64,000 nt of DNA, from contig NZ_JAAORH010000003.1 in assembly GCF_017696085.1 (NCBI RefSeq), positions 186,001 through 250,000 on the forward strand, read 5' to 3'. Shown one piece after another: positions 38,239 to 41,266 of this stretch (position 1 is the first letter of the stretch; every line of letters starts with the position of its first letter). The notes under the pieces were generated by a model. It had not been told where the DNA came from. It did no database searches and saw nothing but the letters and a program-made list of their open reading frames with translations. The DNA is from Prochlorococcus marinus XMU1410. Its GTDB lineage: Bacteria; Cyanobacteriota; Cyanobacteriia; PCC-6307; Cyanobiaceae. Position numbers and translations under genes: made by a program.

Positions 38239-38412
38239 ATGAATTTCTCAGAAATTCCAGAAAATCCTTTTATTTTTTTATCTTGGGTGACTGCTATAGG
38301 GCTATTTATAAGTCTTTCTGAAGCAACAATTAAGATAAAACTTGAGAAGAGAAATAGTTATAGAAAAAGGTTAGAACTAATCAATAACCTTTATCCTAAA
38401 AAGTTAGCTTGA
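38239..38412 (+). CDS. Small membrane protein of unknown function
   Basis: 57 residues from an ATG at 38239: a short polar start, one hydrophobic helix (FIFLSWVTAIGLFISLSE) and a strongly basic tail (KLEKRNSYRKRLELI). The 3' end overlaps the convergent DoxX gene by 9 nt. No family is recognised. The ORF has a clear membrane-then-basic pattern that random frames here do not show. Confidence 0.6.
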   Translation: MNFSEIPENPFIFLSWVTAIGLFISLSEATIKIKLEKRNSYRKRLELINNLYPKKLA

Positions 38413-38955
38413 AGTATCTGAGAGTATGTTCGCTTGCAGAAATTGAAATAAGCCACCTTTACTTGTTTCTTCTTTAACTTCGACTTCCCTAGAATTTTTT
38501 GATTTTGTTGAAAATATAATTTCCTCTTCATCTTCTGATTTCAATATTCTTATAATCACTTCGTCTAAGGAAAAATTACCAGGCCCTGTTAATGCAATTG
38601 AAGTAGCTGAAGCAAAATACAAAAGTAAAAGCTCTAGTAAGAAAATATTAAAACCAGAAGTAACAAGTGCATGGTATATAGCTACAGAAATTGTTCCAAC
38701 AATTGCCAAAGCTCCGAATCTTGTAGCTAAGCCGATAATTAGTAACCAACTACCACCTATTTCTGAGAATGCCGCTATGTATGACAAAAATATTGGAAAT
38801 GGAAGATGTAATGGTCTGACAAAAGCATCAGCGAAATTTTCTATATTTGCTAATTTCTCATAACCGTGATGGATAAGAACAGTTCCAGTTATAACTCTAA
38901 GAATTAATAAAGCAGTATCTTTGCTAAACGACTTTGTAAGAATTGTTGAAAGCAC
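38404..38955 (-). CDS. DoxX-family membrane protein
   Basis: 183 residues with four membrane helices. ALLILRVITGTVLIHHGYEK is the DoxX opening, followed by the LPFPIFLSYIAAFSEIGGS block and LATRFGALAIV. The last ~45 residues are an acidic/Lys-rich soluble tail longer than usual (KSEDEEEIIF). DoxX relatives are linked to redox or quinone functions, but the role is unknown. GTG start at 38955. Confidence 0.85.
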   Translation of the reverse strand: MLSTILTKSFSKDTALLILRVITGTVLIHHGYEKLANIENFADAFVRPLHLPFPIFLSYIAAFSEIGGSWLLIIGLATRFGALAIVGTISVAIYHALVTSGFNIFLLELLLLYFASATSIALTGPGNFSLDEVIIRILKSEDEEEIIFSTKSKNSREVEVKEETSKGGLFQFLQANILSDTSS

Positions 38956-39090: not shown

Positions 39091-40245
39091 TTAAAGATTA
39101 TTTTTTGAAAAATTTTCTAATATTCTTTGATTTATTTTTGGAATATTTTCTTTAAATTTAAAAAAACCTCTTTTAGCAAATTTCCAAGCAAATAAATCTT
39201 CATCCCTCACAAGATTAAAAATTTTTTTATGGTGTAAATTTTTAAACTCAGTTATGAAATCATAATTTTCTCCCACTCCAGGATAAATAATATCTATTTC
39301 GTAGATATTTTTAAAAGTATTTTCCAGTGAATAAGGATCAATCTGCTCAACATTATCAAATTGCTCTACAAATTCAGAGACCAAATCTTGTTTAAATTTC
39401 AAAACAGATTCAGACAATTTAATTTGTCTTTGTTCATTTGTTAAAAGGATAATAAATACTTTTTTGTAGCTTGGAAGTAAATTTTTAAGGGTTGCAAGGT
39501 GCAGATCATTTTCAAACATAATCAGATTATCTGATTTAGGATCCATATCATTTTTATAAATCTCATCTTCAAATGGTATTTGATTAGATTCTTCAAGAAA
39601 AATTTGTTGATTAATTATTTTTTCTACATTAAATCTATTATTTGAAAACTTTCTGAGGTTTGATGATGAAAAAAGATATTGTTTTCCATTCGTTTGCAAT
39701 CCTCCGACCCATCTCCAGCTAAGGAGATTAGATGAAGCATCTCCATCAAAAAGATACTTAAAGAAAAACTTTGCTCCCAATTGCCATGGGAGACCTAAAT
39801 TAAATATCCAAGTACTCGCAAACCACATTCTTGTATGGTTATGCAAATAGTTGTACTGCTTTAATTCATGTACCCAAGAATTAAAAAAATCTAATTCTGT
39901 ATTGCCATTAATTGCACTTTCATATAACTCATAATCAAAATCGAGATTGTTTTCTGAAATAAAATTTCTCCAAACTTTAGGTCTATTTTCCATCCACCCT
40001 TTCCAGTAAACTCTCCAAAATATTTCTTCAACAAATTTAGTTGAATTTTTGATTTTATACTTACTTTTAATATCATGGATCAGATCATATTCCGATAATA
40101 CTCTATGAGTAATGAAAGGCGATAATTTTGAAACTGAACTTTCGTTATTTGGCCCAAAATCAAAATTTCTTAATTTTGCATAATCATGGATTTTGTATTT
40201 TGCAAAATTTTCCCAGGTATCTTGAGCTTTTAATAAAAATGACAT
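39091..40245 (-). CDS. Photolyase/cryptochrome-family FAD protein with apparently permuted domain order
   Basis: 384 residues. Residues ~1-235 are the FAD-binding domain of photolyases: LSPFITHRVLSEYDLI, EEIFWRVYWKGWMENRP, HNHTRMWFASTWIFNLG and LLSWRWVGGLQTNGKQY. The alpha/beta domain that normally precedes it is absent from the N-terminus. Instead ~145 residues follow that look like that domain: LIMFENDLHLATLKNLLP, VFIILL, a helix-strand series, and an ending DEDLFAWKFAKRGFFKF. This suggests a circular permutation. It is probably a light-dependent repair or sensory flavoprotein. It is divergent from the ligase-like gene. Confidence 0.78.
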   Translation of the reverse strand: MSFLLKAQDTWENFAKYKIHDYAKLRNFDFGPNNESSVSKLSPFITHRVLSEYDLIHDIKSKYKIKNSTKFVEEIFWRVYWKGWMENRPKVWRNFISENNLDFDYELYESAINGNTELDFFNSWVHELKQYNYLHNHTRMWFASTWIFNLGLPWQLGAKFFFKYLFDGDASSNLLSWRWVGGLQTNGKQYLFSSSNLRKFSNNRFNVEKIINQQIFLEESNQIPFEDEIYKNDMDPKSDNLIMFENDLHLATLKNLLPSYKKVFIILLTNEQRQIKLSESVLKFKQDLVSEFVEQFDNVEQIDPYSLENTFKNIYEIDIIYPGVGENYDFITEFKNLHHKKIFNLVRDEDLFAWKFAKRGFFKFKENIPKINQRILENFSKNNL

Positions 40246-40516: not shown

Positions 40517-41266
40517 ATGAATAATTTATTAGTTAGAGATGTTAAGTATCTAGATGAACAATACAGAATAGGTGAATGCATAATTTCGGATGATGCATTT
40601 AAGCAACTTGAAAAGCTCTTTATTCCTGTTGATCTAGTGCCTGACTACTTTAATCAAAAAAATAATAAACTTTTGCCAAAATTAGCCAAAGAAAACTATA
40701 AAAAATTTTTGGAAAGTTTATTAACAAAAACAAGATTAAGCATTCAACCAAAAATTGATGGCTGTGCTATTGCAATTAGATATCTAGATGGCAAGTTTAA
40801 TAAAGCTATTACACAAAAAGGATTTGATGTCTCAAGCAAAATTAAACAAATTAAAAATGTCCCCGATTGTATTCCTATCAAACGAGATTTTCAAATTAGA
40901 GGTGAACTATACGCTACAAACCAAGTTGCCGGCATTTCCCAAAGAATTACAAGAAAATACCTCAATGATAAGAAAGGGATTGGAGAAAGTCTCCGCTTTT
41001 GCTGTTTCCAAATACTTAATGGAAGACTTAATCAATACGAAACCCTTAACTATCTTAAAAAATGTGGCTTCAGCACCCCTGACAGTTACTTCACAAATCA
41101 TACAAGCGAAATCCAAATATATAAAAAAAATTGGTTAGAGAAAAAAATATTTGCGAAATATCCAACTAATGGGATAGTTGTAAAAATAAATAGTAGGAAA
41201 TTACAGTTACTTAGAGAGAAAAGTTTATCTCAAAATAACGAATGGCAATATGCAATTGAAAAATAA
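40517..41266 (+). CDS. Stand-alone NAD-dependent DNA ligase adenylation domain
   Basis: 249 residues that align by eye with domains Ia and 1 of LigA. ISDDAFKQLEKL matches the NMN-binding Ia helix. Motif I is PKIDG with Lys79, motif III is QIRGELY (Glu130), motif IIIa is LRFCCFQ, motif IV is TNGIVVKIN (Asn218 where LigA has Asp), and motif V is EWQYAIEK, whose Lys is the last residue. The OB fold, zinc finger, helix-hairpin-helix and BRCT domains are all missing. It could self-adenylate but should not seal nicks alone. Function unknown. A full LigA would have to be elsewhere in the genome. Confidence 0.82.
   Translation: MNNLLVRDVKYLDEQYRIGECIISDDAFKQLEKLFIPVDLVPDYFNQKNNKLLPKLAKENYKKFLESLLTKTRLSIQPKIDGCAIAIRYLDGKFNKAITQKGFDVSSKIKQIKNVPDCIPIKRDFQIRGELYATNQVAGISQRITRKYLNDKKGIGESLRFCCFQILNGRLNQYETLNYLKKCGFSTPDSYFTNHTSEIQIYKKNWLEKKIFAKYPTNGIVVKINSRKLQLLREKSLSQNNEWQYAIEK

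Follow-up and report, generated by a model that had tools for sequence, protein, structure and literature searches.

The question raised by this locus, at 39091-40245 of the window (the whole 64,000-nucleotide stretch that was analysed), is whether a photolyase of Prochlorococcus marinus carries its two domains in the reverse of the usual order and, if so, what the displaced domain is and by which route the order came about. The features on which the answer draws are the following.

39091..40245, minus strand: whole gene of the FAD-first photolyase P0001, 384 aa (open reading frame, homologues and the available part of PMC9426592)
39631..40194, minus strand: FAD-binding helical domain, about residues 18-205 (Pfam; alignment to 1dnp and 1owl)
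39535..39630, minus strand: linker, about residues 206-237, joining the FAD domain to the opening strand of the C-terminal domain
39094..39534, minus strand: C-terminal alpha/beta domain ("Z-domain"), residues 238-384 (AlphaFold2 model; VIA-align 2)

The interval given in an earlier note, 39091-40245, is exactly one open reading frame of 384 codons, with its ATG start at 40245 and its stop at 39091-39093, and the strand, minus, can now be added. The claim of that note that the FAD domain comes first in P0001 is borne out by Pfam, by matches to solved structures and by the peptides it quoted, which lie in the order stated. Pfam FAD_binding_7 matches residues 71-196 (E 3.2e-14, above the curated cut-off), the last ~150 residues give no Pfam match above the cut-off, and four NCBIfam photolyase/cryptochrome models, all under their cut-offs, match within residues 7-191. 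A search of solved structures aligns residues 14-189 with residues 237-415 of the 4u63 chain (E 2e-10), and the N-terminal half of P0001 corresponds to the FAD domain that is C-terminal in ordinary photolyases. The domain order of P0001 is thus reversed relative to theirs. The reading developed below, to which we give a probability of about 0.88, is that P0001 is the Prochlorococcus Phr7 of the FAD-first photolyases (NewPHL/SPL kind), which would repair DNA by the mechanism proposed here and would carry a displaced antenna domain at its C-terminal end.

A photolyase with swapped domains is not new, and P0001 belongs to an already described class of reversed photolyases. The premise from which the earlier note started, that photolyases always have the antenna domain first, is out of date, as the excerpts available of PMC9426592 and PMC13274461 describe the reverse order for the NewPHL/SPL proteins and for Phr4 to Phr7. 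In the former, Haney et al. (2022) list eight photolyase-family members in picocyanobacteria (PMC9426592). Among these, the Prochlorococcus Phr7 consists of an FAD domain followed by a "Z-domain", lacks the Fe-S cysteines and is identified by the authors with the CPD photolyases for ssDNA that Emmerich et al. (2020) described, and the Phr4/Phr5 and Phr6 proteins of Synechococcus and Cyanobium likewise have the reverse domain order (PMC9426592). NewPHLs/SPLs are described in the part seen of PMC13274461 as short photolyase-like proteins with inverted domain topology that repair CPDs in ssDNA, and an SPL gene is named in Synechococcus elongatus in an excerpt of PMC9178010; Phr4+Phr5 and Phr6 are probably the SPL of these other authors, as far as the available text of PMC9649867 and PMC9178010 indicates.

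Compared with Phr7 as the accessible portion of PMC9426592 presents it, P0001 comes from the same organism group and has the same N-terminal FAD domain, the same short C-terminal domain and no Fe-S cysteines. No difference from that description was found, and P0001 is the version of this gene from a different species or strain. The example strain for Phr7 in Fig. 1 of that source, MIT 9302 (PMC9426592), carries a copy (L071) that is 85% identical to P0001. Three FAD_binding_7 matches are present in the MIT 9302 genome, namely this copy and two others, whose open frames (479 and 501 aa) have the usual length of canonical-order photolyases. The genome to which the window belongs holds three further FAD_binding_7 matches besides P0001, in open frames of 484, 524 and 501 aa. 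For annotation, the gain is that the gene in the window is to be named Phr7/NewPHL and not a canonical photolyase.

The NewPHLs of Emmerich et al. 2020 reportedly come from Dinoroseobacter shibae and Methylobacterium mesophilicum and act on CPDs in ssDNA. These two proteins, known here by description only, share the inverted topology with P0001. Further features of the NewPHL/Phr7 kind that P0001 displays are the N-terminal FAD domain, the separate C-terminal domain, the lack of any cysteine and its grouping with alphaproteobacterial FAD-first proteins, both by full-length match and in the FAD-domain tree (support 100/100). With Phr4+Phr5 and Phr6, P0001 shares the FAD-first order and the relative place of the partner domain, the FAD domains being 29-37% identical to its own. 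It differs from them in that they are usually encoded by two genes (Phr4+Phr5; Phr6 is the fused form) and P0001 by one, and in that they carry cysteines for an Fe-S cluster in the FAD domain (as described in the excerpt of PMC9426592 and as seen in their sequences), whereas P0001 has none. In addition, Phr5 can be recognised by sequence as a photolyase N-terminal domain, whereas the C-terminal domain of the Prochlorococcus Phr7 cannot.

Fold and sequence of the C-terminal domain

An AlphaFold2 model of residues 229-384, built from 30 Prochlorococcus rows, reached a mean pLDDT of 74.5 and a pTM of 0.69; it predicts an alpha/beta fold of five strands alternating with helices, and its tail past model residue 120 is of low confidence (pLDDT 49-60). 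A full-length model of P0001 from 23 Prochlorococcus rows had a mean pLDDT of 46.9, its FAD domain being unusable. VIA-align 2 was run with the C-terminal model on the 1000 top-ranked Foldseek chains, of which the 50 best rows are considered here. Photolyases and cryptochromes occupy all of ranks 1-15 (Z 8.7 to 7.1) and 34 of the best 50 rows, the first other protein being Can2 (Z 7.1). The best row, 8a1h, has Z 8.7 and rmsd 2.9 over 109 aligned residues, within chain residues 24-149, and model residues 10-121 superpose on residues 2-131 of the 6dd6 chain. In 14 of the 15 top rows the alignment begins at chain residue 1-6 (at 24 in 8a1h), which places first strand on first strand. The match lies wholly inside the N-terminal domain at ranks 1, 3, 5, 13 and 14 (8a1h, 7ykn, 6dd6, 9hnk and 9q8f); in the other 10 of the 15 the last aligned residue falls at 302-398, beyond that domain, where the last helices of the model are aligned. 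Rows within 1 Z of each other count as tied, and the best Z in searches without a clear match is typically 7 to 8, so that 8.7 is moderate and its weight comes from the agreement among rows. In this model residues 238-347 have an alpha/beta fold superposable on photolyase N-terminal domains, and the likeness that the earlier note saw between the C-terminal segment and that domain extends in the model from the first strand onward.

By sequence, the photolyase N-terminal domain family PF00875 finds no Pfam match in P0001, and the Prochlorococcus C-terminal domains alone give hhalign probabilities below 1% to Phr5 or to canonical N-terminal domains; a mixed 15-row C-terminal set gives 6 to Phr5 and 0.3 to the canonical domains. 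Seven alphaproteobacterial C-terminal domains, which match the Prochlorococcus ones in hhalign (probability 93, E 3e-7), align with Phr5 over 44 columns at a score of 33.7 (E 1.2e-4) and with canonical N-terminal domains over 83 columns at 26.3 (E 1.9e-3); the corresponding hhalign probabilities are weak, at 55-61 and 14-20, respectively. The maxima of 100 column shuffles were 19.4 for Phr5 and 17.2 for the canonical domains, and no control family devoid of FAD-first and class I photolyases scored above 16.9. It has to be noted that the 20 control families are automatically grouped open frames from the fetched loci, several of them non-coding frames, and that a truncated row (L200) was left out of this test; controls that do hold photolyases scored 30.1 (ctl0, the Phr4/Phr6 group), 20.2 (ctl1, class I photolyases) and 14.0 (ctl10, Phr2-like). 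Searched against the PDB, the alphaproteobacterial C-terminal profile found no photolyase, its single match up to E 10 being a ribosomal protein at E 0.11. As for Phr5, it matches 27 canonical N-terminal domains with an hhalign probability of 97.5 (E 5e-12, 129 columns), and its matches to Pfam DNA_photolyase, E 1e-4 in L138 and 0.014 in L139, stay below the cut-off; judged by its sequence, Phr5 is a true photolyase N-terminal domain.

These results have to be set against a different reading, in which the C-terminal domain is an unrelated Rossmann/HUP-like domain that was recruited to cap the FAD site and resembles the photolyase domain through a common fold only. This is unlikely, albeit the strongest of the alternatives. 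It draws on the negative Pfam and PDB profile searches, on the closeness of the best Z to values typical of searches without a clear match, and on Foldseek, which with the C-terminal model found no match at E <= 0.001 and ranked a phosphopantetheine adenylyltransferase first and the photolyase PhrB second (E 0.007, probability 1.00). The unrelated origin is opposed by the run of photolyases and cryptochromes at the head of the VIA-align 2 rows, with no other protein above Z 7.1, by alphaproteobacterial hhalign scores in excess of both the shuffle maxima and the best control that holds neither FAD-first nor class I photolyases, and by Phr5, which stands in the same place and is clearly homologous to the canonical domain. 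On balance, the evidence leans towards descent from the antenna domain, by fold more than by sequence, for which the support is weak, and the C-terminal domain of P0001 is most likely an ordinary antenna domain moved to the other end of the protein. Haney et al. (2022) call the Z-domain "an atypical, short photolyase domain" in the portion of their paper available here (PMC9426592); among the titles and abstract openings surveyed on photolyase circular permutation or domain order, none announces it as a displaced antenna domain.

Relatives and the route to the reversed order

Full-length FAD-first relatives were found on alphaproteobacterial plasmids in six records (Ruegeria, Niveispirillum, two of Asticcacaulis, Peteryoungia and Novosphingobium), which cover at least 80% of the query at 28-34% identity; the best, from Ruegeria, aligns from residue 12 to 371 at 34% identity (E 5e-66). 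Across all full-length alphaproteobacterial relatives compared, identity to P0001 ranges over 27-34%. Of the first 14 cyanobacterial loci examined (L137-L150), 12 encode the partner domain in a separate open reading frame and 2 have it fused behind the FAD domain; further loci (L213-L232) hold a Phr5-like frame within the fetched stretch in 12 of 20, and a Deinococcus plasmid also carries a split pair. One of the further loci, L231 (G272), from a distant relative of the same phylum, has a 451-aa FAD-first frame with a long C-terminal part that the Phr5 query left unmatched. Outside the Cyanobacteria and Alphaproteobacteria, a plasmid of Persicobacter sp. JZB09 (L168) bears three photolyase-family frames in one stretch, one of them apparently fused and FAD-first, its C-terminal part having been judged by eye.

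A tree of the FAD domain was computed from 65 rows, after 17 of 82 thinned rows (truncated or near-duplicate) had been removed by hand; ten rows were relabelled as canonical in order after inspection, six of them among those removed. The nine Prochlorococcus rows group with the six alphaproteobacterial ones (100/100), and a second group (94/95) unites 20 of the 21 Phr4/Phr6 rows and leaves out L229. A branch with 100/100 support has the FAD-first rows together with a canonical-order Phr2-like group on one side and the class I and DASH-like rows on the other. The Phr2-like group, of four rows, sits next to the Deinococcus row at the end of a very long branch, and treekit warns of long branches meeting in this tree. 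The AU test does not reject a single clade holding all 39 FAD-first rows apart from the remaining 26 (p-AU 0.315), or one of NewPHL and Phr4/Phr6 (36 rows, p-AU 0.342); a single origin is thus no more than compatible with the tree.

The earlier note had explained the reversed order by a circular permutation. Reversal and its conservation hold, whereas circular permutation is only one of the routes that lead there, and fission of the gene followed by fusion explains the order as well or better, given that the inner strand order is unchanged and that relatives consist of two adjacent genes (Phr4+Phr5). In the VIA-align 2 superposition the model of the C-terminal domain has the same inner strand order as the photolyase N-terminal domain, and this intact order makes a permutation inside the domain less likely than a move of the whole domain by gene fission and fusion. 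A true circular permutation, in which an ordinary photolyase gene underwent tandem duplication and truncation with no split-gene stage, would equally leave the inner order of each domain as it was while reversing the order of the two, as expected of a cut between domains; it is nonetheless doubtful, and slightly more so than an unrelated C-terminal domain, as the relatives are so often encoded by two genes, in the first 14 cyanobacterial loci as well as in Deinococcus.

A displaced antenna domain also allows a broader proposal, which we hold to have an even chance of being right as a whole, namely that the Z-domain is a displaced and diverged antenna domain and that all FAD-first forms (Phr4/Phr5, Phr6, Phr7/NewPHL, the Deinococcus pair and the Persicobacter form) share one rearrangement or else keep an older order. 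Were this so, the split pairs would be living intermediates and the direction of photolyase evolution would become testable. The case shows that the two halves of a photolyase work as modules that can change places or be divided between two genes, and this in a phototroph that ranks among the most abundant in sunlit surface waters.

Active-site residues and the proposed reaction

For the residues of the FAD domain, an alignment of 12 cyanobacterial and alphaproteobacterial homologues (A2) was used, the profile of which was aligned to 1dnp and 1owl; its row L107 is 42 bases short at the C-terminal end, and L107 and L131 include in-frame codons before the start. E74, W77, R78, N136, R139 and M140 of P0001 align with E. 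coli E274, W277, R278, N341, R344 and M345, and W154, D167, D169, N173, W177 and W179 align with W359, D372, D374, N378, W382 and W384. The E. coli positions in 1dnp are taken by us to follow the literature numbering, and presumably these residues contact FAD and the CPD in class I enzymes. All 12 are invariant across the 12 rows, and no invariant column is found between F205 and D247, a stretch that takes in the linker. The classical chain has its outer tryptophan at E. coli W306, and P0001 carries a residue other than tryptophan at the aligned position. There is no cysteine in P0001, and hence no Fe-S cluster.

Relative to the class I CPD photolyases of E. coli (1dnp) and A. nidulans (1owl), P0001 has a homologous FAD domain and shares the active-site residues, whereas the class I enzymes start with the antenna domain and have, at the aligned place, the third member of the classical tryptophan chain, which P0001 lacks there. 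In the mechanism that we propose, the N-terminal helical domain would bind fully reduced FAD together with a flipped-out cyclobutane pyrimidine dimer, and blue or near-UV light would excite the FADH-, from which an electron would pass to the dimer, split it and return. Photoreduction of the flavin may proceed via W177 and W154, the third classical tryptophan missing at its usual place, and the C-terminal alpha/beta domain probably packs on the FAD domain, where it would shield the flavin; an antenna pigment such as MTHF, 8-HDF, DMRL or FAD may have been retained by it or lost. Light-driven CPD repair by P0001 is inferred from the conserved residues, and the putative substrate, ssDNA, is assumed by analogy with the alphaproteobacterial NewPHLs that have been characterised. 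Of the related Synechococcus genes, phr4/phr5 expressed in E. coli gave protection against UV-C, with no significant difference between light and dark according to the excerpt of PMC9426592, which also places the Phr7 gene in high-light and LLI strains and describes LLII-LLV strains as having no photolyase-family gene. That P0001 is a cryptochrome-like light sensor or a redox flavoprotein that has lost DNA repair is very unlikely, and a cryptochrome-only role is set aside on account of the conserved active-site residues: the portion of the literature covered reports no activity for any Prochlorococcus copy, and the tryptophan equivalent to W306 is missing, but the residues presumed to contact FAD and the CPD are conserved, N173 (E. 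coli N378) and M140 (M345) among them, the gene is recorded in high-light and LLI strains where LLII-LLV strains lack the whole family, and CPD repair is reported for related proteins (excerpt of PMC9426592, citing Emmerich et al.).

Distribution, selection and neighbouring genes

A scan of GTDB genome contigs returned at least 598 candidate stretches, at least 579 of them encoding a relative, and the best 80 were retained. In 79 of these best 80 loci residues 1-378 or more of P0001 are covered, at 70-97% identity; the remaining one (L075) ends at a contig end and covers residues 1-272. Among genomes of the same genus, 32 of 37, counting the source genome, cover residues 9-378 or more; the five that lack such a match are G003, G020, G031, G032 and G035, and G003 alone among these exceeds 90% completeness. 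In a family-wide draw, 140 of 200 genomes match at E <= 1e-12. Among the matches listed in this draw, 25 same-genus genomes cover at least residues 6-379 and 11 of 13 genomes of a second Prochlorococcus genus (g55) cover most of P0001, and the other 102 matching genomes show only the FAD part, within residues 13-232. Some g55 copies are broken, one by a single internal stop (L132 in G212, one of the 11) and one by several stops (L158 in G227), and one is partial, with the C-terminal part alone (L157 in G232); they may reflect gene loss under way or assembly error.

Nei-Gojobori estimates of dN/dS against eight relatives lie at 0.09-0.24 for codons 1-205 and at 0.07-0.26 from codon 229 onward, both well below 1, which places both halves under purifying selection. 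Chance or an assembly artefact as the source of the gene is ruled out by its recurrence across loci and by these ratios. Viral contigs gave one 41-residue match at a contig end and, searched with a wider alignment, no relative, and ten phage records match, all inside query residues 7-252 and none reaching 80% coverage.

As to the surroundings of the gene, a stand-alone NAD-dependent DNA ligase adenylation domain of 249 aa (PF01653, E 1.8e-18) is encoded beside it at 40517-41266 on the plus strand. Two short open frames, of 253 and 255 aa, account for every PF01653 match in the source genome, no full-length LigA being seen among them, and two ATP-type ligase matches lie in open frames of 547 and 456 aa. 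A DoxX-family gene (38404-38955, minus) follows the photolyase gene on the same strand. In the 57 of the best 80 loci that have full flanks, and counting homologues anywhere in the locus, the DoxX-family gene recurs in all 57 and the ligase-like neighbour in 54, with none in L071, L072 and L073. In g55, at L152 and L155, a canonical-order Phr2-like frame (499 and 514 aa) precedes the FAD-first gene by less than 1 kb. Among the alphaproteobacterial FAD-first genes, those of L163, L165 and L166 have an AarF/ABC1/UbiB kinase gene adjacent or at most 2 kb away, and those of L165, L167, L201 and L202 adjoin DUF3429 genes; a functional link of the FAD-first photolyase with either kind of neighbour is possible.
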